Below, piece by piece: positions 22,487 through 38,729 of a DNA stretch of 51,322 nt (position 1 is its first letter; each line of letters begins with the position of its first letter). The notes beneath the pieces are model-generated. The model did no database searches and had not been told where the DNA came from. It saw only the letters and a program-made list of their open reading frames with translations. Made by a program: the position numbers and the translations under genes. This DNA comes from a virus, in the IMG/VR virus record IMGVR_UViG_3300030098_002568, positions 1 through 51,322 of that record; one strand, written 5' to 3'.

Positions 22487-22522
22487 GTATTTTAATTATG
22501 TTAAACAATGAAAGGCAAACTA

Positions 22523-23281
22523 ATGAAAAACAAACTACTGTCCACAACCGCTATATACTTTTCAAAATTCTTTTCGGTTGATAGTGCCAAAGCCGCTAAA
22601 GGAAAATCTTTTGGTGCACTCAATGGGATTAACTATATGGCACCAGAAAAGCGCAACGGGCTAGGCGTTAACTTGTGCGCCGGATCTAGTGCGGGTTGTC
22701 GCGCTTTATGCCTAGGCCATTATAGTGGCCAAGCGGCAATGGTTTCCGATATTGAGAACGACACCAATAGCGTCCGATTATCGCGCCAACGCAAAGCACG
22801 TTACTGGATAGAAAACCCAACCGCGTTCTTGGCGGAAGCCGAATATCATATTGATAAACTAGTAAACAAAGCGCGGAACATGAATCTTGAACCGGTTATA
22901 AGAATGAATGGTTCAACCGATATCGCGTTCGAAGATCATGGATTAATTCAAAACTTTCCAGATGTTCAATTCGTAGACTACACGAAGCTATACAAACGTT
23001 TTAAGAATAAGCCGAACAATCTATCCCTTACATTCTCACGTTCCGAGACTAACGAAGCTACAGCCCGTAAACTGTTAGAACGTGGCGAGAATATAGCGGT
23101 TGTGTTTCTTGGAAAGTTTCCAGATGAATATCTAGGTGCGCCGGTTATATCCGGTGATGAGCACGATTTACGACACAGAGATCCGCGCCGCGATGGTGGT
23201 TATATCATTGGACTAACACCCAAAGGTCGAAAAGCTAAACGTGGTGACGTGTTTGGCTTTATTGTAAAAGAGGTAGCGTGA
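22523..23281 (+). CDS. GP88-family protein, 252 aa
   Basis: Matches the mycobacteriophage gene product 88 pattern: GVNLCAGSSAGCRALCLGHY (Cys cluster), RQRKARYWIENPTAFLAEAE, PVIRMNGSTDIAFED, FPDVQFVDYTKLYKRF, NLSLTFSRSETNEATARKLL, AVVFLGKFPDEYLGAPVISG-D and GYIIGLTPKGRKAKRGDVFG. The conserved C-x7-C-x3-C set suggests metal or Fe-S binding. Biochemical role is not established. ATG 22523 preferred to 22508 because gaaaggc lies 6 bases before it. Followed with 1-base overlap by two small paralog-like genes. Confidence 0.85.
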   Translation: MKNKLLSTTAIYFSKFFSVDSAKAAKGKSFGALNGINYMAPEKRNGLGVNLCAGSSAGCRALCLGHYSGQAAMVSDIENDTNSVRLSRQRKARYWIENPTAFLAEAEYHIDKLVNKARNMNLEPVIRMNGSTDIAFEDHGLIQNFPDVQFVDYTKLYKRFKNKPNNLSLTFSRSETNEATARKLLERGENIAVVFLGKFPDEYLGAPVISGDEHDLRHRDPRRDGGYIIGLTPKGRKAKRGDVFGFIVKEVA

Positions 23282-27547: not shown

Positions 27548-28315
27548 ATGACCAAAGACATTGAGGTTAAGGTCAGGAACCATCCGGTCTTCGACTTCCT
27601 TGTCATGGAAGCAGTTGTTCCTTTGGACTTTGTTCAATCCTTGGATGCAGAAGTTGACAAAGTATTTAGTCGCAAAGTTAAGGACGATGACTTCTCGGAC
27701 AAGTTAGTAGGTCAGATTAAAACAGGCGCACAACTCAAACTAAACAGAGAGGAGTCAGAAGTCTTCGAACAGTTTCATGGGATCGTGGAATCCTTTGCCA
27801 TGAAGTATGCAAAGTTCTTCGAGGAAAGCATATCGTCAAGCAATCAAGAACTGCATGCCGCAGCACACTGCAATGAGATGTGGTCTGTTCATAGTTTCGC
27901 TAACGACTACAACCCTCTACATGATCACGGTAAACTAAGGCCAGACACTGGTGCTATGTCGTTTGTTTTATGGACAAAGATTCCTGAGAACATGCGAAAC
28001 GAAAAGGCTACCAGCATGAAAGGTGCATCAGGTATGCTTGATGGTGCGATTAGTTTTGTTAATGGACCCATGGGGCAAGGTTTTGATTTAGAGCTACGAC
28101 CAACCAAGGTACTATCGATAGAGCCAAAGGTAGGACGCATGGTTATCTTTCCTAGCTGGCTTAACCACATGGTCTATCCTTTCCGATGCGAGGGCGAAAG
28201 ACGATCTCTCGCTGGAAACATTGCTTTATTTTCAAAGGAGCATTTGAGTCATGAAAAGATACAAGGTGATGGTTTACAACCGCAAGAGTCCAATACCAGT
28301 GGTGAGCCTAATTGA
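27548..28315 (+). CDS. 2OG-Fe(II) oxygenase (TIGR02466-like), 255 aa
   Basis: The double-stranded beta-helix ligand pattern is clear: FANDYNPLHDHGK (H125, H127 region), GRMVIFPSWLNHMVYPF (H207) and ERRSLAGNIAL (R219, which would bind 2-oxoglutarate). FPSWLNH-x-V-x-P is the hallmark of the TIGR02466 group found in many marine phages. Known reaction class: Fe(II)/2OG-dependent hydroxylation; the substrate (protein, nucleic acid or metabolite) is not known. The N-terminal ~100 residues are an extra helical domain. RBS aaaggag at 27533-27540. Confidence 0.82.
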   Translation: MTKDIEVKVRNHPVFDFLVMEAVVPLDFVQSLDAEVDKVFSRKVKDDDFSDKLVGQIKTGAQLKLNREESEVFEQFHGIVESFAMKYAKFFEESISSSNQELHAAAHCNEMWSVHSFANDYNPLHDHGKLRPDTGAMSFVLWTKIPENMRNEKATSMKGASGMLDGAISFVNGPMGQGFDLELRPTKVLSIEPKVGRMVIFPSWLNHMVYPFRCEGERRSLAGNIALFSKEHLSHEKIQGDGLQPQESNTSGEPN

Positions 28316-28841: not shown

Positions 28842-29003
28842 ATGCAGAAACAGAAAGTAGATTTAATTAACGTGGCTTTGCCACGACAAGCACACAAGCT
28901 ATTGAATATTCTTGCGGAAGAGGACAGAAGATCTCTTGCAAACGAACTAGCATTTCTCATCGAGAAAGAAGAAGAACGCAGGGCAAACGCTGAAGCACAC
29001 TAG
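28842..29003 (+). CDS. Ribbon-helix-helix protein, 53 aa
   Basis: Begins MQKQKVDLINVALPRQAHKL and continues LNILAEEDRRSLANELAFLI: one beta strand (VDLINVAL) followed by two helices with a turn at DRRSL, the plan of Arc/CopG/MetJ-type DNA-binding dimers. Preceded by aggagag. Last gene of the accessory operon; its end overlaps the convergent XF1762 gene by 4 bases. Such proteins bind short inverted repeats as dimers of dimers. Confidence 0.75.
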   Translation: MQKQKVDLINVALPRQAHKLLNILAEEDRRSLANELAFLIEKEEERRANAEAH

Positions 29004-29452
29004 GCATTAGCTTCCCAACGAAACTTTAGCTGTCCGTAGATCGGCTGCCAATCTCGTTTCCTGTCTTTACGATCCCAAGTATCAGGCTTTGTCTCACCAA
29101 TAATCTTCCAACCCGCACCTCGGAGCGAGGATCCAGACTCCTCTTGCAAAGTGTAGGTGACCATGCGTTTACCGCCCATCTGTTGCCAGATACGCCAGCA
29201 TCGACCATACAAAAAACTGCATGTGTTTTTGGGTGCGTGACCTACGACACAAACTCTGGTAACCTCGGCTGTCATACTGTCTTGCAGAGTTGCCGATACA
29301 GGACGACCCACGATAGCCACCCCGACAAGACCTTCTTCGACAGATGCACCTATGGCAAACCGTCCACCTTGCGTTGGCTTGTTGTGCCTGTGAAAGTTAG
29401 CAACAAATTCGTTGGCTTCACGAATTGTTACAGGAATTATTTCAAGTGACAT
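29000..29452 (-). CDS. XF1762-family protein (GNAT-like), 150 aa
   Basis: Clear pattern of the XF1762 family: IPVTIREANEFVANFHRHNK, FAIGASVEEGLVGVAIVGRP, AEVTRVCVVGHAPKNTCSFL-YG and TYTLQEESGSSLRGAGWKII, then the basic end (WDRKDRKRDWQPI). The fold is thought to be acetyltransferase-like, but no acceptor is established. Starts directly after the stop of the PAPS-reductase-like gene; in phages the two types are often neighbours, suggesting one pathway. Confidence 0.85.
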   Translation of the reverse strand: MSLEIIPVTIREANEFVANFHRHNKPTQGGRFAIGASVEEGLVGVAIVGRPVSATLQDSMTAEVTRVCVVGHAPKNTCSFLYGRCWRIWQQMGGKRMVTYTLQEESGSSLRGAGWKIIGETKPDTWDRKDRKRDWQPIYGQLKFRWEANA

Positions 29453-30250
29453 CTAAACACCACACATCCCCTCGCATTCGTTGTTGAATAGATTAAGCTG
29501 GCCCAAGTCTTCAAGGCTTCTAAAGTCTACTTCATCAAGGGGTTTACAAGATCGATGAACATACTGTCTTCCATTATTACGACCCTTATTACGAATGGCT
29601 TTATCAAACTCAACTGCTTCATTGAAAGATTGTGGGTCATCTTTTTTCATGTCACGCCACATCAGATCGTTATGAAATGGGCAAGCAATACAAGCACTCT
29701 TGGCAAGAGTTCTTCCAGGGTATCTTTTGTCGAACCATTTAATACAGTCTTGCCTTGACATTCTTGAGTCGATCAATGGCCATGTGTTCTCAACCCAGAG
29801 ATCTCTTGATGGTTTCATTCTCATGGCTTCATCAGTGCTTATACCTAGCCATTGTCTTACGGCTGTTTCCTTTGGGGCTCGTTGTCGGGGCTTCAATCCT
29901 AAAAGGTCACGCAACTTCTTACGGATCGGATCAATTTTATAGTTTGAGGTGCATTGTCTTCTGCCCAACCCACCCTTCTCTGTGTAAAAAGGTATTGTTG
30001 AAAAAGCATTGTTACTTCTAGTTCCTATCCCCTTGAGGTGATGATCCTTTATATCCCCCGCTGACACACGATAGACCGGATAAGGAACCTGTTTTTCTAA
30101 CCAGTTTAGATGGTCGTACACACCTTGAGGTTCGAACATTGTGTCAGCAAAAATAGCACAGGCAGGCATGGGGCTGAGTTCACCTTCCGCTGCCATCAAG
30201 GCCATGACTGTTGACTGAACACCCGCGCCCAAAGATATAACTTCAATCAC
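29453..30250 (-). CDS. PAPS-reductase-like ATP pyrophosphatase with Cys cluster, 265 aa
   Basis: P-loop-like start VISLGAGVQSTVMALMAA (SxGxxS loop of the adenine-nucleotide alpha-hydrolase superfamily). Conserved RRQCTSNYKIDPIRK, GISTDEAMRMK and the Cys motif SACIACPF, plus a C-terminal CEGMC. The extra Cys residues suggest a metal or Fe-S cluster. Family members adenylate or reduce sulphur compounds or modify nucleic acids (DndC-type). With no sulphate pathway genes here, nucleotide or DNA/RNA modification is more plausible, though unproven. Confidence 0.82.
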   Translation of the reverse strand: MIEVISLGAGVQSTVMALMAAEGELSPMPACAIFADTMFEPQGVYDHLNWLEKQVPYPVYRVSAGDIKDHHLKGIGTRSNNAFSTIPFYTEKGGLGRRQCTSNYKIDPIRKKLRDLLGLKPRQRAPKETAVRQWLGISTDEAMRMKPSRDLWVENTWPLIDSRMSRQDCIKWFDKRYPGRTLAKSACIACPFHNDLMWRDMKKDDPQSFNEAVEFDKAIRNKGRNNGRQYVHRSCKPLDEVDFRSLEDLGQLNLFNNECEGMCGV

Positions 30251-30452
30251 TTTCCCACCACCTACTTCTGTTCTTTTTACCTGCTGTCATAGGTAGTTTG
30301 GTTGGGTCAACACCGACCAATAAGGCTCGTGCTATCCCTACATGTAAGCCTGTTCTTTTGGCCAATTTCTTTGCCGCCTCTGACTTTGGCATCTTATAAC
30401 GCTTAAAGTCTGTCATCAATTGACTTATTTCTTCGGGCTTAGTTCGAGCCAT
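30243..30452 (-). CDS. Small basic helical protein, 69 aa
   Basis: MARTKPEEISQLMTDFKRYK, then MPKSEAAKKLAKRTGLHVGI with ARALLVGVD. SEAAKKLAKRTGLHVGIARALL has the length and spacing of a helix-turn-helix. Overlaps the SNF2 gene by 28 bases and the PAPS-like gene by 8, so it is co-translated. A DNA-binding or adaptor role is possible. Confidence 0.68.
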   Translation of the reverse strand: MARTKPEEISQLMTDFKRYKMPKSEAAKKLAKRTGLHVGIARALLVGVDPTKLPMTAGKKNRSRWWESD

Positions 30453-31891
30453 TCTTTACGCTCCTCTTTTAAAACCTTTGCACTTAAATCTAATTTGTTC
30501 TGCAACGCTTTGACAATGCGTTCATCAATTGTACCTTGTGCTATTAAATCAACATACGTCACTGGATTGTTCTGCCCTATTCTGTGACAACGATCCTCAC
30601 TCTGAATCCGTGTTTCGAGGTTAAAGTCATTTGAATAATACACTACAGTGTTAGCGGCGGTAAGAGTTAAACCAAGGCCAGCGGTCTGTGGATTACCAAC
30701 AAAGAATCTTAGCGCCGAGTCTTTGTCTTGGAAGCTGTCAATAATTTGTTGTCTGTCTGCATCAGATGTGTCTCCGTAATATGAACGAGCACAACCTCGA
30801 CCATAGGCTTTGTTCAATGTTTCAGTAATCTTTTGTATGTCATATCGAAAGCGTGACCAGATTAAAACCTTGCCTTCGATCTCACTAATCGTGTCAAGTA
30901 AAGCATCAATCCGTTTGTTGGGTATCTCAATTAATTCACCATCGTCCGTGCGAACATGACCCGACAGCACCTGTTGCAGCCGAAGCATCTGGGTTATGAC
31001 CTGAGGGGCTGATACCAAGTCATCTTCCAGGATGATCATGGCTTCTCGTTTCAGATCCATGTACATTTTTATTTGTTCCGTGGACAGTGGTACATGCCTG
31101 ACGGTGTACGTTTTGGGCGGAAGATCCAGACAGTCTTTTTTCAACACACGAAAGCTGAAGTTCTTGATCTTGTCTGATAGTTCATCAAGGTTTCGATAGC
31201 CAAGTATCTGCTGGTATGTATGGCTTTGGCCTGAAACTTTTTGCAACCAAGCGTATCTGTTTTGAAAAGTATAGAAGTTATTACACCCTAGAATCTTTTG
31301 TGACAGTAGATGAAACTGACTGTAAAGATCCATGGGATTGTTTGTTACTGGAGAACCAGTCAGGATCCTACGATAGAAAAACTTGTGTGCTATTTTTATG
31401 AGGTTCTTGGTTCGCTTGGCCTTGTGGTTCTTGACTGTGGTGCTTTCGTCCACCGCAATCATACCTCTGTTGCCTCGCATCGAGGCCACGGTTAGGGCAA
31501 AGTCGTTACCTTTCTTAGTGGAAAACGCCTCTACATTCATAACAAAGATAACAAGATGTTCAGATTTAATATTACCAAGAGAATTTAATTTTTCCTTTTG
31601 TTTTTTATTTGGACTTGGAACCCATCGAATCACTTCTCTTTTAATGTCATTGGATAAATGTGCAGGGATCTCTGCGTTAACCCAGTTTTGATACACACCT
31701 TTTGGTGCTACAACCATGAGAAAATTTATTTCTCCACGGGCGTATAAAATTCCTGCGTCATCAAGCAAACATTTGGATTTTCCTGTGCCCATCTCCATCA
31801 AATAAGCAAACGCCGTTTTACGATCAGCTTCTTTAACTGCATCTAACTGATGCTGATATGGTTTAGTTTTAAAATTGTAGTTGACAGTCAT
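30425..31891 (-). CDS. SNF2-type (SF2) helicase, 488 aa
   Basis: Motif I MEMGTGKSK (residues 32-40), Ia VVAPKGVYQNW, motif II DEST (148-151, variant of DEAH), motif III LTGSPVTNNP, motif V GLGLTLTAANTVVYYSNDFN and motif VI DRCHRIGQNNPVTYVDLIA. HRIGQ is typical of SNF2-like ATPases. Known role of phage members: DNA translocation or remodelling, often during replication or recombination. First gene of a four-gene minus-strand unit starting from the control region at 31881-31946. Confidence 0.9.
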   Translation of the reverse strand: MTVNYNFKTKPYQHQLDAVKEADRKTAFAYLMEMGTGKSKCLLDDAGILYARGEINFLMVVAPKGVYQNWVNAEIPAHLSNDIKREVIRWVPSPNKKQKEKLNSLGNIKSEHLVIFVMNVEAFSTKKGNDFALTVASMRGNRGMIAVDESTTVKNHKAKRTKNLIKIAHKFFYRRILTGSPVTNNPMDLYSQFHLLSQKILGCNNFYTFQNRYAWLQKVSGQSHTYQQILGYRNLDELSDKIKNFSFRVLKKDCLDLPPKTYTVRHVPLSTEQIKMYMDLKREAMIILEDDLVSAPQVITQMLRLQQVLSGHVRTDDGELIEIPNKRIDALLDTISEIEGKVLIWSRFRYDIQKITETLNKAYGRGCARSYYGDTSDADRQQIIDSFQDKDSALRFFVGNPQTAGLGLTLTAANTVVYYSNDFNLETRIQSEDRCHRIGQNNPVTYVDLIAQGTIDERIVKALQNKLDLSAKVLKEERKEWLELSPKK

Positions 31892-31946
31892 AGCATTCTA
31901 CCTTAAAAAATAATCTGTTATTGCATAATGCTGTAACAGATGTCAA
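31881..31946. promoter_or_regulatory. Bidirectional control region with co-centred dyads
   Basis: Plus strand: TTGACA (31881-31886), 17 bp, TAAAAA (31904-31909). Minus strand: TTGACA (31946-31941), 18 bp, AATAAC (31922-31917). Between them ATCTGTTA (31913-31920) pairs with TAACAGAT (31934-31941), and GCAT/ATGC (31923-31931) lies inside; both dyads centre on base 31927. A protein bound here could switch the divergent helicase and replication operons together. Confidence 0.6.
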
Positions 31947-31985
31947 CCAGAAAGCCGAAGGGCATGTACTTATAACGAGGTGAAA

Positions 31986-32543
31986 ATGAAAAACTTATTT
32001 GAAGAAATGGTAGCAGATGCTGATGAGTTTAAGAATATAACGGATGAGGGTGGGTCAACGCTGACCAACCTGGTTCAACAAACACAAAGGCTCGATGCTG
32101 ATATTACACAAGCAGAAGAGGCTGTCAAAAGTCTTAAAGCAGAGAAACGAAAACTAACGGAAGAACTTATTCCCATGAAAATGGGTGAGATGGGAGTTGA
32201 AAAATTTGAAACGGCAAACGCCGTGGTGAGCATCAAACCAGTGGTGCATGCATCTATTCCAAAAGATAAACAGGAACAAGCGTTTGCGGAACTCAGAGCC
32301 AACGGTGACGGAGACCTCATTAAGAACGAAGTGCGAATTAATTTTGGCATGGGTCAGGACAACGAAGCTGGTGCGGTTATGGACAACCTCAGACAACAGG
32401 GGTTGGAACCCACACAAAAAACATTTGTGCATCCAAGCAGCTTAAAAGCCTACATCAAAGATAAGGTTCAAAGTGGGGATCCAATTAACTTAGACAACTA
32501 TGGTGCATACGTTGCACAAACAGCTTTCGTAAAGGGGAAATAA
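31986..32543 (+). CDS. Coiled-coil replication-operon protein, 185 aa
   Basis: ATG 31986 with cgaggtg just before; the GTG at 31980 is less likely. The N-terminal half is a long coiled coil (LVQQTQRLDADITQAEEAVK; SLKAEKRKLTEELIPMKMGE). The C-terminal half is an alpha/beta domain with INFGMGQDNEAGAVMDNLRQ and FVHPSSLKAYIKDKVQSG. Proteins with this order often precede an SSB-like gene in marine phages; Gam-like nuclease inhibitor is one idea, but no function is established. Confidence 0.78.
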   Translation: MKNLFEEMVADADEFKNITDEGGSTLTNLVQQTQRLDADITQAEEAVKSLKAEKRKLTEELIPMKMGEMGVEKFETANAVVSIKPVVHASIPKDKQEQAFAELRANGDGDLIKNEVRINFGMGQDNEAGAVMDNLRQQGLEPTQKTFVHPSSLKAYIKDKVQSGDPINLDNYGAYVAQTAFVKGK

Positions 32544-32544
32544 A

Positions 32545-33333
32545 ATGGCTACAAAAATTACAAAAAAAGAATCTAATCTTCCAGCCGCTTTAATGGAAGA
32601 CATGTTAGCAGATGCTGGTGATGGTGTAGATTACAACACAGATGAGCTAACAATACCACGCATTCAATTAGTGCAGGCTTTATCACCAGAGCTAAAAAAG
32701 ACAGACCCTAAATTTATCGAGGGCATATCTGCGGGTGATATATTTAACACCGTAACACGTGAACGATATGCAGCAGAGGATGGTGTCAATGTCGTTGTTG
32801 GGTATCAATCCACTAAATATAACGAATGGATACCTCGTGACCAGGGTGGTGGTTTTGTTCAAGAACTTAGCGCAGACAGTCAAGATGTTAAACAGGCAAC
32901 TAGAGAGGGTGCTCGTGAAACACTACCTAACGGTAATGAACTCGTTAAAACAGACGAGAGTTATGTGTTAGTTCAAACAGAAAGCGGTTGGGCTCCAGCT
33001 ATTATTAGCATGGTAAAAACTCAACTAAAGGTTAGCCGCCGTTGGAAAACACAAATTCTTATGCAGACAGTAAAAATGAAGGGTGAAAGCAAACGTCTTC
33101 CTTTGTATGGGACTATATGGAAATTAAAATCTGTAGAGGAGACCAACAAAAACAACGAGTCATATTACAACTGGACTGTTGAAAAAGTTGGTATTGTGGA
33201 AGATCCTGCTTTATATAATGAAGTGAAGACCTTCCGTCAAAGTGTATCTGATGGGGAGGTAAAAACAGCACCAGATCAGGATCCTGGAGTTGCTCCCGAC
33301 TCTAGTGTCAATGACGATAGCATACCGTTCTGA
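32545..33333 (+). CDS. Putative single-strand DNA-binding protein with SSB-type tip, 262 aa
   Basis: The beta-rich middle (YNTDELTIPRIQLVQALSPE; GVNVVVGYQSTKYNEWIPRD; KQTRE-type loops; KSVEETNKNNESYYNWTVEK) looks like an OB-fold. The C-terminus is Asp-rich and ends VNDDSIPF, very close to the DDDIPF tip by which bacterial SSB recruits partner proteins. The IPRI-x-LVQ and NGE-type segments are typical of a phage protein group placed beside primase genes. Followed by an intrinsic terminator, allowing higher expression than the genes beyond. Confidence 0.75.
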   Translation: MATKITKKESNLPAALMEDMLADAGDGVDYNTDELTIPRIQLVQALSPELKKTDPKFIEGISAGDIFNTVTRERYAAEDGVNVVVGYQSTKYNEWIPRDQGGGFVQELSADSQDVKQATREGARETLPNGNELVKTDESYVLVQTESGWAPAIISMVKTQLKVSRRWKTQILMQTVKMKGESKRLPLYGTIWKLKSVEETNKNNESYYNWTVEKVGIVEDPALYNEVKTFRQSVSDGEVKTAPDQDPGVAPDSSVNDDSIPF

Positions 33334-33343
33334 TCGTGGTGCA

Positions 33344-33380
33344 GCGAGGTCACCGTGTAGCCGGTGGCCTCGCACTTTTT
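33344..33380 (+). terminator. Intrinsic terminator between ssb-like and primase genes
   Basis: GCGAGGTCACC (33344-33354) pairs with GGTGGCCTCGC (33363-33373; one G-T pair), loop of 8 bases, then ACTTTTT. It ends 14 bases before the TTG start of the primase. Probably partial, lowering primase relative to the SSB-like protein. Confidence 0.85.
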
Positions 33381-33393
33381 CGGGAGAAAGTAA

Positions 33394-34947
33394 TTGTCGA
33401 ATGCAGAGAGATTCCGACAATTGTTTCTTGGATCTTCTATTGCCCACGGTCACACAGAACTTGGACCAAGAGGACGTAATGGAAAACAAGAAGCAAAGAG
33501 TCGAGTAAGACAGGGTGCACTGGACAATGATATGATTCAACAGCATCTTGATGGAACGCTAGGAGTTGGAGCGATACCAATTGACGTGGATAGTCTATGT
33601 TCTTTTGGTGTAATAGATATTGATACATATCCATTGGATCTAGTTGCCTTAAATAAAAAAATAATAAAACTAAAGATGCCACTGACAATTTGTAGATCAA
33701 AGTCGGGGGGCGCACATCTGTATGTTTTCTTAAAAGAACGCACTGAAGCTACTTTAATCCGTGAGGCTCTTGAAGAAATGGCTTCAATACTAGGTCATGC
33801 TAGTGCAGAGATATTTCCAAAACAAACTACGATACAAGTTGATCGAGGAGAGACAGGCAACTTTATAAACTTACCTTACTTCGATCACTCAGAAACAATG
33901 AGATACGGTCTAGATAAAACTGGAAACGCTTTTAGTCTTAGAGATTTTTTAGACCATGGTGAATCCAACAAGGTGGATAAGCATACTCTTATGCATCAAG
34001 ACTTTGGTGTATTTGAAGATGGGTTTAGTGACTGTCCTCCCTGTATGCAATCACTAATACGTGAGGGTGTTGGAGAGGGTAACCGTAATACTTTTATGTT
34101 TAACGCTTGTACCCAAGAGAAAAAACGTAACCCAGACAAGTGGAAGAAAGAAGTGGAGAAGATAAACATACAGGCATGTACTCCACCTTTGTCTTCACGT
34201 GAATTGTTACAGCTACAAAAGCAGCAGGAAAAGAAAGACTATCAATATCAGTGCAACCAGCACCCATTAAAATCATTTTGTAACCGTGAGATATGCAAGA
34301 AAAGAAAGCACGGTATTGACGGTGGTCCGGTGCTCACGATCAATGGTCTAAGTGTACTGGAATCTGACCCTCGTGTCTGGTTCGTTAGTATTGATGGCAG
34401 GACTGTAGAACTATCGACAGAACAACTACAAGTTCCGCTACAGTTTCAACGAGCATGCATGGAACAACTACATTTTATGCCACCAATACCGAAACAAGCG
34501 GATTGGACTAATGCTCTTAACACATTGATGCAGACAGCTTCTGTTATCGAGGTGTCAGAAGAAGACACAGAGCGCGGCCAGTTTAAAGATTTCGTTATTG
34601 AATACTGCACTGGCAGGCTAACAGCCCAGGATCCGTCAGAGGTAACGATAGGCAAGGCATGGACGGATGAGGATCAAAACGTGATCTATTTTAAACCAGA
34701 GGGTCTTGAAAGATTCTTAGAACAAAAAGGTTTTATTAAGTATCGCAACAAGCGCGGTATTCTCATGACGCGATTATCTGAACTGGGAGGAGAAAAGAGT
34801 GCTCGTTTATCTTGGAAGGACACATACACAGGTAAAAAAATGAGAGTGAGGTGTTGGAAGATTCCAACCTTTGATGAACAGGACGTTCCTACTGAAGTAA
34901 AACTACCAACAATGGAGAATATTAAAAATGACGACATCCCCTTCTAA
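33394..34947 (+). CDS. Archaeo-eukaryotic-type primase (AEP), 517 aa
   Basis: TTG start with ggagaaag 4 bases upstream. Motif I FGVIDIDTYP (D75, D77), motif II SKSGGAHLY (H108) and motif III near QVDRGETGNFINLPYF: the AEP primase/polymerase catalytic set. Next comes CPPCMQSLIREGVGEGNRNT, as in TOTE-type and phage primases, then a probable zinc site C287, H290, C296, C301. The C-terminal ~200 residues form an unassigned domain, and the end reads KNDDIPF like an SSB tip. Role: primer synthesis. No DnaB-type helicase domain is fused or nearby. Confidence 0.85.
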   Translation: MSNAERFRQLFLGSSIAHGHTELGPRGRNGKQEAKSRVRQGALDNDMIQQHLDGTLGVGAIPIDVDSLCSFGVIDIDTYPLDLVALNKKIIKLKMPLTICRSKSGGAHLYVFLKERTEATLIREALEEMASILGHASAEIFPKQTTIQVDRGETGNFINLPYFDHSETMRYGLDKTGNAFSLRDFLDHGESNKVDKHTLMHQDFGVFEDGFSDCPPCMQSLIREGVGEGNRNTFMFNACTQEKKRNPDKWKKEVEKINIQACTPPLSSRELLQLQKQQEKKDYQYQCNQHPLKSFCNREICKKRKHGIDGGPVLTINGLSVLESDPRVWFVSIDGRTVELSTEQLQVPLQFQRACMEQLHFMPPIPKQADWTNALNTLMQTASVIEVSEEDTERGQFKDFVIEYCTGRLTAQDPSEVTIGKAWTDEDQNVIYFKPEGLERFLEQKGFIKYRNKRGILMTRLSELGGEKSARLSWKDTYTGKKMRVRCWKIPTFDEQDVPTEVKLPTMENIKNDDIPF

Positions 34948-35176
34948 TTTTTTAAAGATAGATGAAGTGGCTAAAATTTTACAAGTCGATAGGACAACAA
35001 TCTATCGCTGGCTGAAGGAGGGTACATTTCCAGACCCTACTCGTATTGGCCCTGCTTTTAAGATGGAGAATGGTAAGAAGAAACCAAAGAGACAAGGTAT
35101 ACGTTGGGAGGAAGACCTCATTCGTGCTTGGATGAAAGACAACGCATGGCAAGGTTTAGTTAATGCGGAAGATTGA
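34928..35176 (+). CDS. AlpA/excisionase-like HTH protein, 82 aa
   Basis: FLKIDEVAKILQVDRTTIYR then WLKEGTFPDPTRIGPAFKME, and IRWEEDLIRAWMKDNAW: the AlpA/MerR-type winged HTH with the typical R-W-x-x-x-x-I-x-x-W end. Overlaps the primase by 20 bases and the helicase by 14, so it is embedded in the replication operon. Known members regulate transcription or help excision; here binding to the origin or autoregulation is a plausible role. There is no integrase. Confidence 0.83.
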   Translation: MTTSPSNFLKIDEVAKILQVDRTTIYRWLKEGTFPDPTRIGPAFKMENGKKKPKRQGIRWEEDLIRAWMKDNAWQGLVNAED

Positions 35177-36695
35177 ACAGCTTTACTTTGGGCCACCAGG
35201 GTGCGGTAAAACATATACTCTGATGCAAGTTATCAGGGATTTGATGGGCGAGGATGGTATACCTCCCCACCAGATAGCGTTTTGCTCCTTCTCTCGTAAA
35301 GCAATTCAAGAGGCTAGAGAGAGAGCTGGCTCAGATCTTTCATTAAGTAAGGAAGAGACACCGCATTTTAGAACGCTTCACTCAACTTGTTACCATGCTC
35401 TTGGTCTTTCCTCTAGCCAGGTTATGGGATCAGAGGACTATAAAGAGATTGGTAGAGGTATGCACCACAACCTTAACTTTGATGCAGAGGTTGATGATTC
35501 TACAGGTTTGACAACAACAAGTAATCCATACCTTCGTTGTATTGAACTGTCTCGTGCTCGACAGACCAGTTTAGAAAGCGAGTTTAAACGCATAAACAAT
35601 CCAACAATGCATTGGACTTTACAAGAACAGATAGATGCAAATATAAAAATATACAAACAAGAAAAAGAAAAGTTTGATTTTGCTGATATGCTATCTCTTT
35701 TTGCTAAAGGGCAAGGCTCTGCTCCAGAGATAGAAGCGTTAATAGTAGACGAGGCACAGGACTTAACCGCATTACAGTGGGCCGTGGTTCGTAGACTTAA
35801 ACAAACAGCTAGTCATGTTTTCTATGCAGGAGATGATGACCAAGCTATCCATCGATGGGCTGGCGTAGAAGTCTCAAGGTTTACTGGATGCACGGAAAAT
35901 AAAATAGTTTTAGATCAAAGTTATCGTGTTCCACGTAAGGTTCACGCTCTTGCAGAGTCTATTGTTTGTCGGATTAAAAACAGATATCAGAAGACCTGGA
36001 GGCCAACAAATCAAGACGGAAATATATCATTCAATCTTAATGTCTGGGACTTAAATTTAGATCATGGATCTTGGACGATTATGGGCAGAACCAATAGATT
36101 GTTGGTTCCTATCATGCAAGAGTTAAGTGAAAATGGATACTTGTACGAGGACAGCAACGGTAACACAAACATATCACAGAGAATCTTAACAGCTAAAGTT
36201 ACATGGGAGAACTTAGCTAGTGGTGGTCAGGTGGATCTCAATTCGATTAGAAGTTTGTATGAACAGATGCCCAAGAACAACAAGATCTTAAAAAGAGGAG
36301 CGTCTTCTTTTCTTGACACATTAGATCCAGAAATACCTCACACAATAACAGCGTTACAAGAGAGCGATAAGTTTTTAGCCACCAACAACATGCCGTGGTT
36401 CGAGGTTATCAAAGGTGTGAACGATAGCACTCGTGCAAAGTTTGATGCGGTTTTGCGTAGAGAAGGATCTAAAGGTTTATCCAATCCAAGAATTAAAGTT
36501 TCCACAATACATCGTATGAAAGGTGGTGAAGACGATAATATAATTTTATTGAGTGATACATCTTATGCCGCGAATAAGTACGGTGATATCGATGATGAAA
36601 GGCGTGTGTTTTATACTGGTGTTACCAGAGCTAAACAGAAACTTCACATTATAGAACCTCAAACAAAAACATATTTCCAGGAGTTAATGCTATGA
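35163..36695 (+). CDS. UvrD/PcrA-like SF1 helicase, 510 aa
   Basis: Motif I GPPGCGKT (residues 10-17), motif II VDEAQD (195-200), motif III YAGDDDQAIHRWAG (221-234), motif IV QSYRVP, motif V STIHRMKGGE (447-456) and motif VI YTGVTRAK (484-491). Shorter than UvrD because the 1B/2B domains are reduced. Known role: 3'-5' unwinding of DNA. In this operon it is the best candidate for the replicative helicase, working with the AEP primase and PolA. Confidence 0.92.
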   Translation: MRKIEQLYFGPPGCGKTYTLMQVIRDLMGEDGIPPHQIAFCSFSRKAIQEARERAGSDLSLSKEETPHFRTLHSTCYHALGLSSSQVMGSEDYKEIGRGMHHNLNFDAEVDDSTGLTTTSNPYLRCIELSRARQTSLESEFKRINNPTMHWTLQEQIDANIKIYKQEKEKFDFADMLSLFAKGQGSAPEIEALIVDEAQDLTALQWAVVRRLKQTASHVFYAGDDDQAIHRWAGVEVSRFTGCTENKIVLDQSYRVPRKVHALAESIVCRIKNRYQKTWRPTNQDGNISFNLNVWDLNLDHGSWTIMGRTNRLLVPIMQELSENGYLYEDSNGNTNISQRILTAKVTWENLASGGQVDLNSIRSLYEQMPKNNKILKRGASSFLDTLDPEIPHTITALQESDKFLATNNMPWFEVIKGVNDSTRAKFDAVLRREGSKGLSNPRIKVSTIHRMKGGEDDNIILLSDTSYAANKYGDIDDERRVFYTGVTRAKQKLHIIEPQTKTYFQELML

Positions 36696-36865
36696 AAACC
36701 ATCTTGGTTTATCCAACAAACGAAACTCTTAATATAGTTATTGATGGAAAGGCTTATAAAAAAGACATGACTGCACCTGATATGGTTAGATTAGCTAATG
36801 AACTTCTAACAAGAGCATCTGACATGATGTACTTTGAAAAATGGAATAAGAAAAATGACAGCTAA
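36692..36865 (+). CDS. Small protein between helicase and polymerase, 57 aa
   Basis: ATG 36692 overlaps the helicase stop by 4 bases; ends at 36865, inside the polymerase start (11-base overlap). MKTILVYPTNETLNIVIDGK, then AYKKDMTAPDMVRLANELLT and a helical end. One beta hairpin and one helix. Possibly a polymerase accessory; no family known. Confidence 0.7.
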   Translation: MKTILVYPTNETLNIVIDGKAYKKDMTAPDMVRLANELLTRASDMMYFEKWNKKNDS

Positions 36866-38729
36866 CTACGAGTTTAATTACGTCTACGATACGACATGGC
36901 AACCGCCTGATGTTTTTCCTGACTTAACCAACAGCAAAAACATGGCCATAGATCTTGAGACTTGTGATCCAAACATCAAGACACGTGGTCCTGGTTGGCC
37001 ATACAAGGATGGCTACATCGTAGGATTTGCTATCGCTGCCGGTGACTTTGCAGGATACTACCCTATCGCTCATGCTGGTGGTGGTAACATAGATAAGAAC
37101 ATCGTTCTGCGGTGGGTTAAAAAACAGCTTGCTACTCCTGACATACCCAAGATTATGCACAACGCTATGTATGATGCGGGTTGGTTACAGACAGAGGGTA
37201 TCGAGGTTCAAGGTAAAATTATCGATACGATGATTGCCGCGCCTCTTGTAGACGAGAACAGATTTTCATATTCGTTAGATGCCCTTGGCAAGCATTACCT
37301 TGATATGCGTAAAGACGAAAGGACACTAAAAGAAAGAGCGGCTGAGTTTGGGTTCGATGCTAAAGCCGATCTATGGCGTATGCCATCACAGTTTGTTGGG
37401 GAATATGCTGAGATGGATGCCGTACTAACACTACGTTTGTGGGAACATTTAAGTGCGATAATCAACAAAGAAGAACTGACCTCAGTCTTTGAATTAGAGA
37501 CAGGACTGATCCCTGTCGTATTAGAGATGCGCCGTCGGGGGGTACGTGTTGATCTGGATATCGCAGAACAGGCAAAAGAAAAACTAAACTCTTCCTACAA
37601 CAGCTTATGGCAGAAAATATATAAAGAAACGAACGTGGAACTTGAACCGTGGGCAGCGGCTTCGGTTGCACAGGTCTTTGACAGTATGGACTTGCACTAC
37701 AACAAAACTAAAACAGACCAACCTTCTTTTACAAAACAGTTTTTAAATGAACATTCACATCCGATTGCTAAGAAGATTGTGCGTTTAAGAGAGTTGGATA
37801 AAGCTAAGAGTACTTTTATTGAGACAATTCTAAACTACGAACACAAAGGCAGAATACATGCAGAGTTTCATGCCTTGAGATCAGACGATGGGGGGACAGT
37901 TACTGGCCGATTCTCGTCATCTCACCCCAATCTACAACAGATGCCAGCACGTGATCCTGAGATTAAGAAACTTATACGAGGGTTGTTCTTGCCCGAAGAG
38001 GGAGAGAAGTGGGGTAGCTTTGACTACTCGTCCCAGGAGCCACGGTTGTTGGTGCACTTTTGTGGATCTTTGCCAGACAAGTTTCGCCATCCCAAGATAG
38101 AGGGTGTTATACAAGAATACAACGAGGGTGACCCCGACTTTCACCAGATGGTGGCAGACATGGCCGACATAAGCCGTAAGGATGCCAAGACAGTCAACCT
38201 TGGAATTATGTATGGCATGGGTCAGAAAAAGCTAGCTGGCGTTCTAGGGGTCAGTATAGACGAAGCAAAGGAGCTTCTTGGACAGTACCATGTCAAGGTG
38301 CCTTTTGTTAAGGACATTGCCGATATCGCCATGAAACAGGGACAGGATGCCGGTCAGGTGAGAACTATACTTGGCAGGCGTTGTCGGTTTGATATGTGGG
38401 AGCCAAAGTCCTACCAGTACAACAAGCCTATGAACTTTGATAACGCAATTAAAAACTATGGCGGTAAGGGTATGATTAGACGTGCCTTTACATACAAGGC
38501 ATTAAACAGGTTGATACAGGGGTCAGCAGCTGACCAGACCAAGAAAGCCATGCTTGAATGCTACAAGGCTGGATATCAGCCATTGTTACAGGTGCATGAC
38601 GAACTATGCTTTAGTATTAAAGAAGGTGAAGAAAAGGATATTGCCGAAATCATGGAGACTTGTGTGGATTTATTAGTTCCGTCCAAGGTTGATGTGGCTA
38701 TAGCCGATAACTGGGGGGATGTAGATTAG
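36855..38729 (+). CDS. Family A DNA polymerase with 3'-5' exonuclease, 624 aa
   Basis: Exonuclease: AIDLET (D33, E35), HNAMYDAGW (D108) and YAEMDAV (Y184, D188), all intact. Polymerase: motif A SFDYSSQEPR (D390), motif B RKDAKTVNLGIMYG (R441, K445, Y453) and motif C QVHDEL (H581, D582). T7-like in length and layout. No DnaJ-type zinc insertion is present. ATG 36855 chosen over 36834 because of the family start and the ggaataag upstream. Its end overlaps the convergent lysozyme gene by 4 bases with no terminator between them. Confidence 0.95.
   Translation: MTANYEFNYVYDTTWQPPDVFPDLTNSKNMAIDLETCDPNIKTRGPGWPYKDGYIVGFAIAAGDFAGYYPIAHAGGGNIDKNIVLRWVKKQLATPDIPKIMHNAMYDAGWLQTEGIEVQGKIIDTMIAAPLVDENRFSYSLDALGKHYLDMRKDERTLKERAAEFGFDAKADLWRMPSQFVGEYAEMDAVLTLRLWEHLSAIINKEELTSVFELETGLIPVVLEMRRRGVRVDLDIAEQAKEKLNSSYNSLWQKIYKETNVELEPWAAASVAQVFDSMDLHYNKTKTDQPSFTKQFLNEHSHPIAKKIVRLRELDKAKSTFIETILNYEHKGRIHAEFHALRSDDGGTVTGRFSSSHPNLQQMPARDPEIKKLIRGLFLPEEGEKWGSFDYSSQEPRLLVHFCGSLPDKFRHPKIEGVIQEYNEGDPDFHQMVADMADISRKDAKTVNLGIMYGMGQKKLAGVLGVSIDEAKELLGQYHVKVPFVKDIADIAMKQGQDAGQVRTILGRRCRFDMWEPKSYQYNKPMNFDNAIKNYGGKGMIRRAFTYKALNRLIQGSAADQTKKAMLECYKAGYQPLLQVHDELCFSIKEGEEKDIAEIMETCVDLLVPSKVDVAIADNWGDVD

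Follow-up and report, generated by a model that had tools for sequence, protein, structure and literature searches.

In this virus an AEP primase and a gp34-like protein (gp34), which are unrelated and encoded by neighbouring genes, end in matching residues, and these ends are, judging from their conservation, under selection. In the window, that is the whole 51,322-base stretch of IMG/VR record IMGVR_UViG_3300030098_002568, gp34 ends in NDDSIPF and the primase in KNDDIPF, the tip peptides of the module being PDSSVNDDSIPF and ENIKNDDIPF. The tip of bacterial SSB is DDDIPF. The paired tips are the strongest signal in the analysis and were missed in the initial annotation of this DNA; they are also its new point, the module itself having been described in part.

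The genes were obtained from the ORF listing and from profile searches (Pfam, PHROGs) of the 51,322-base IMG/VR record. The replication module spans 30425-38729 of the window and is composed as follows:

30425-31891 (-): SF2 helicase of the SNF2 type, divergent to the rest of the module (Pfam SNF2-rel_dom, E=9e-20; phrog_62 DNA helicase, 2e-123)
31980-32543 (+): gp33-like (Pam3 gp33-like) protein with a coiled-coil N-terminus (PF23984, 2e-24)
32545-33333 (+): gp34-like protein, probable OB-fold ssDNA binder with a disordered acidic tail and the end NDDSIPF (PF23977, 7e-59)
33394-34947 (+): AEP primase with Prim-Pol fold, Cx8Cx4C cluster, C-terminal domain and tip KNDDIPF (Pfam AEP-TOTE PF22548, 6e-15; phrog_21866 'primase', 1e-83)
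34928-35176 (+): 82-aa HTH_17/AlpA-like protein, an optional part, its gene overlapping those of the primase and UvrD (HTH_17, 6e-10)
35163-36695 (+): compact UvrD-like SF1A helicase of 510 aa (UvrD-helicase, E=4e-27)
36834-38729 (+): family-A DNA polymerase (PolA) with Leu762, motif NLGIMYG (DNA_pol_A, 1e-65; 3'-5' exonuclease, 3e-15)

The start first proposed for the module, 31986, falls inside the gp33-like gene. The HTH_17/AlpA-like gene was present in only 4 of the 93 loci searched (the window, L001, L004 and L013), some of them distant. Upstream of the module, a gene for a Mom-like DNA modification protein (29000-29452, minus strand; PF25680, phrog_1384) adjoins one for a PAPS-reductase-like protein (29453-30250, minus strand; phrog_424), and the pair possibly forms a two-gene DNA modification system. 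A GP88-family protein (PF17338) is encoded at 22508-23281 (+) and a 2OG-Fe(II) oxygenase, a probable auxiliary metabolic gene, at 27548-28315 (+).

The initial annotation had named an AEP-type primase with a zinc cluster, a UvrD-like SF1 helicase, an SNF2-like SF2 helicase and a T7-like polymerase, and the first three identities held in the profile searches listed above. In the primase, whose AEP domain has the DxD and SxH motifs, the DxD (D75, D77) and SxxH (H108) residues as well as cysteines C287, C296 and C301 were invariant among 54 aligned relatives. The label itself is not new, as the protein is already called a primase in GenBank and PHROGs. Its predicted structure matched the CAPP Prim-Pol 7nqf (Foldseek, E=2e-10), and the likeness to CAPP and AEP-TOTE proteins in the Prim-Pol fold was also seen at profile level (E=5e-14). 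In contrast to those systems, the phage module is without CRISPR or conflict genes, and the primase has a C-terminal domain of its own and an SSB-like tip; in all loci with flanks its neighbours were genes for replication, which is not the neighbourhood of a TOTE conflict system. The UvrD-like helicase retains GPPGCGKT, DEAQ, GDDDQ and YTGVTRA, that is, motifs I, II, III and VI of the UvrD/Rep/PcrA SF1A group are intact, and its sequence matches in the PDB were PcrA, UvrD and Rep. In the main clade, most UvrD-like helicases have a conserved YRYx(I/L) as their last residues after motif VI, with Tyr at position -3 in 60 of 70 (e.g. L014:12540-12566), and this could be a second docking end. The polymerase does belong to family A and has the exonuclease domain, but its proposed likeness to T7 did not stand: it is Klenow/Pol I-like with Leu762 and not T7 gp5-like, its PDB matches were of the Klenow/Taq type, and the motif, read in 54 sequences, had leucine at position 762 in every one.

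Relatives of the module were collected by scanning IMG/VR with primases of different clades, with at most 80 loci kept from each; three of the scans confirmed 589-599 relatives before this limit was applied. In the four clades used for neighbour counts, where only loci with long enough flank were considered and those of one clade, being closely related, are not phylogenetically independent, gp34 was upstream of the primase in 186/186 loci, gp33 adjoined gp34 upstream of the primase in 152/152, UvrD and PolA were downstream of it in 175/175 and 60/60, respectively, and the SF2 helicase was upstream on the opposite strand in 97/97. Genomes of the Acinetobacter, enterobacterial and ct3 phages and of Nanhaivirus have these genes too, in other arrangements. 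Nanhaivirus was considered as a natural case of PolA loss and dropped, since PolA is encoded elsewhere in its genome and it is therefore uninformative on this point. The gp33-gp34-primase-UvrD-PolA module is shared with HTVC027P, HTVC023P, Phage DSL-LC04 and 023Pt_psg01; the pelagiphages HTVC027P and HTVC023P differ from the window in that the HTH gene is absent, both HTVC027P tips end in IV and the HTVC023P primase is tipless. Among phage records there were no close relatives of the window at the DNA level.

The replisome had been presented as unusual in the initial annotation. It is instead a fixed and very common module of the virioplankton, described in part by Nasko 2018 (PMC6302109), who found PolA genes of the Leu762 Group II together with UvrD (68%) and SNF2 (45%) helicases, the UvrD plus SNF2 pair accounting for 16.4% of the PolA-contig reads from an estuary sample, and ring helicases accompanying the other PolA types. 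The window has Leu762 (NLGIMYG) and both helicases. It thus resembles that arrangement in a Leu762 PolA beside UvrD-like and SNF2-like helicases, ring helicases being absent from that PolA group; the passages of that paper considered here, however, define the arrangement by PolA and helicases, without AEP primase, gp33/gp34 or C-terminal tips (PMC6302109). Since Leu762 PolA, UvrD and SNF2 were reported there, the arrangement was already known, and what the present analysis adds to it is the AEP primase, gp33 and gp34.

Tip counts for the main clade cover the complete sequences of the window and of the 79 IMG/VR relatives nearest to it. A Pro-Phe end, usually as (D/E)(I/V)PF, was found on 77/77 primases and on 73/75 gp34 proteins, while none of the UvrD (0/70) or gp33 (0/69) proteins in the same loci ended in PF. 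Entropy at tip positions -1 and -2 was 0-0.2 bits, and gp34 positions -7 to -16 were near random at 3.3-3.9 bits. Chance as the source of the tips was ruled out by these counts, given that among some 5,760 other six-frame ORFs just 6 had such an end, one of them being the tail of a frameshifted gp34. Within the main clade, changes at residue -3 fell on two branches of the tree shared by the gp34 and primase tips against 0.55 expected; this covariation is weak and gives no clear signal. The matching of tips is a pattern between clades.

In some of the other clades both tips are of another type and yet match. In 65 loci of HTVC027P-like phages gp34 ends in DIV and the primase in NIV or similar, and in three IMG/VR relatives as well as the phages of Acinetobacter, Klebsiella, Salmonella and Providencia the two tips are acidic followed by F, L, M or Y (EF/EL/EM). 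The ends in ct3Et533 are DIPFA on gp34 and PPFV on the primase, and 023Pt-like phages have STPY and an acidic tail with a final F. HTVC023P-like phages and Nanhaivirus have a tip on gp34 and none on the primase, and the primase tip is therefore not essential to the module everywhere. The SSBs of SAR11 end in PF, as DD(E/D)IPF, in 9/9 genomes related to the HTVC027P host. It follows that the IV tips of HTVC027P are not copies of the host SSB, and the idea that the tip is a host-SSB copy in every clade was ruled out on this basis. In addition, the two Acinetobacter/enterobacterial relatives that were checked have a separate small SSB ending in DDDIPF or DDDLPF.

The gp34 protein is a probable OB-fold ssDNA-binding protein, its predicted fold leaning towards those of SSB and RPA. 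The AlphaFold core had a pLDDT of about 96, and residues 240-262 were of low pLDDT, giving a disordered acidic C-terminal tail with a hydrophobic end. Fold matches in the PDB were mostly to OB-folds of RPA and SsbA/SsbB and were weak (best E=0.014, none below 0.001, low TM-scores); the viral fold matches were to uncharacterised proteins. The gp34-like family was matched in 503 phage records and is without function in PHROGs. In phiVC8, YuA, PB1, Bordetella FP1 and Wifcevirus WFH (L181-L185), the order is helicase, gp33-like, gp34-like, also with other polymerase types, and the gp34 tails of these five lineages are acidic with F or M last. This suggests that helicase-gp33-gp34 is an older sub-module for recombination or replication. 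As phiVC8, DMU1 and PMBT28 encode another SSB-like protein separate from gp34, the latter may bind ssDNA in a specialised role as a second such protein. In its (D/E)(I/V)PF end after a disordered linker gp34 is like the bacterial SSB C-terminus; unlike there, the tip is found on a primase too, and on a candidate ssDNA binder that is not homologous to SSB. Neither a phage primase with an SSB-like tip nor the pairing of the tips was found in the open-access literature searched.

The reading we favour, tentatively and at slightly less than even confidence, is a phage replication module without a ring helicase in which the tips of gp34 and the primase dock on one shared partner and exchange there. 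Gp34 would coat ssDNA, the AEP primase would lay primers on the gp34-coated strand and PolA would extend them, while the 3'-5' UvrD-type motor and strand displacement by PolA would open the fork. The initial annotation had offered a 3'-5' SF1 motor and recruited host DnaB as alternatives, and either may run the fork. The acidic disordered tails of gp34 and primase, carrying the same type of tip, would dock on one common partner, and at this shared site ssDNA-bound gp34 would be exchanged for the primase. Tip exchange is here modelled on T7, whose gp2.5 and gp4 have acidic tails with DF at the end (DEDGDF and SNDTDF, respectively). The gp4 tails bind the T7 polymerase (PMC8472574), and the gp2.5 tail has been implicated in binding both the polymerase and the primase-helicase (PMC5686142). 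The module resembles the T7 replisome in having a family-A polymerase and a putative SSB and a primase with acidic C-terminal tails ending in Phe; it differs in that T7 has a non-AEP primase joined to a ring helicase, and the T7 polymerase is not Leu762 Klenow-like. The IV/IV and EF/EF matching of the tips makes a common partner encoded by the phage (PolA, UvrD or the SF2 helicase) more likely than an SSB-binding protein of the host. Host partners are possible in the PF clades, since the tip there equals that of the host SSB.

Recruitment of host DnaB through SSB-binding proteins is a live rival for the PF clades, one that we consider unlikely. The (D/E)(I/V)PF tips would copy the host SSB tip and dock PriA, PriC, HolC or RecQ, whereby host DnaB would be loaded and unwind the phage forks, leaving UvrD for repair or displacement. 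The agreement of the window-clade tip with DDDIPF and with the DD(E/D)IPF of SAR11 SSBs, and the lack of a phage ring helicase, would both fit such a scheme, and many proteins of the host are known to be bound by the SSB C-terminus (PMC10018359). A pure mimic should nevertheless keep PF, and for this reason the IV tips on both HTVC027P-clade proteins, in a host group whose SSB ends in PF, and the EF-like tips on both Acinetobacter/enterobacterial proteins, beside a separate small SSB with DDD(I/L)PF, count against pure host mimicry.

Replication without a ring helicase might also proceed without any exchange of tips, which we hold to be improbable. PolA strand displacement and UvrD would then suffice, and the tails of gp34 and primase would have separate roles, such as autoinhibition of DNA binding, and be alike by convergence. 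Acidic tails do regulate DNA binding in phage SSBs, e.g. in Enc34 ORF6 (PMC5686142), the primase tip is absent in two clades and the covariation of the tips on a fine scale is weak. Against convergence stand the identical last residues on two unrelated folds of one operon and the differences that are matched in other clades.

Searches for a ring helicase encoded by the phage itself were negative. The DnaB_C domain had no match in the window record, in a search that was positive in 14/14 control genomes, and RepA-type AAA_25, DUF5906 and phrog_19 had no match there either. None of the other window proteins of at least 200 aa was a helicase in a PHROGs scan of all of them and a Pfam scan of some; those with an annotated function were structural or packaging proteins, and the remainder belonged to no known family. 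These results bear out the earlier claim that no DnaB/RepA-type helicase is present. The C-terminus of the 517-aa primase (about 315-490), where a RecA-fold was to be looked for as evidence to the contrary, does not form a RecA-fold helicase in the structural model (pLDDT 90.6). Matches of the primase to folds other than Prim-Pol were weak, the best being a winged-helix-like relaxosome accessory protein at an E of about 0.26. As the window record is linear and without terminal repeats it is perhaps incomplete, and the DnaB_C search was therefore repeated on 29 related records. DnaB_C, and with it a T7-type ring primase-helicase (gp4), was absent from all 29, with sub-threshold P-loop matches only, in three relatives; PolA was present in 27 of them. 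Twelve of the records were deposited as complete phage genomes, namely Phage DSL-LC04, HTVC027P, HTVC023P, 023Pt_psg01, ct3Et533, Acinetobacter DMU1 and Barton, Klebsiella VLCpiS6a, Salmonella PMBT28, Providencia Kokobel2, Pan1 and R26L. That a ring helicase is missing merely because the record is a fragment, as its linear form without terminal repeats might imply, is highly improbable given DnaB_C in 0/12 of these module-carrying genomes and in 14/14 controls.

Among the PolA types of the virioplankton, that of the module is one of the commonest, with 16.4% of the PolA-contig reads from an estuary sample (PMC6302109). With more reserve than for the shared-partner reading itself, it may be proposed that a large phage lineage, marine and otherwise, uses a non-ring 3'-5' SF1A motor at the fork and an AEP primase that is brought to SSB-coated DNA by a tip shared with, and exchanged against, the non-homologous gp34, an arrangement that would have arisen independently of T7. 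The matching tips on two unrelated proteins offer a precise, cheap and testable entry to this question, consisting of a short peptide and four candidate partners. If true, the proposal would give the gp34-like family, matched in 503 phage records, a likely function.
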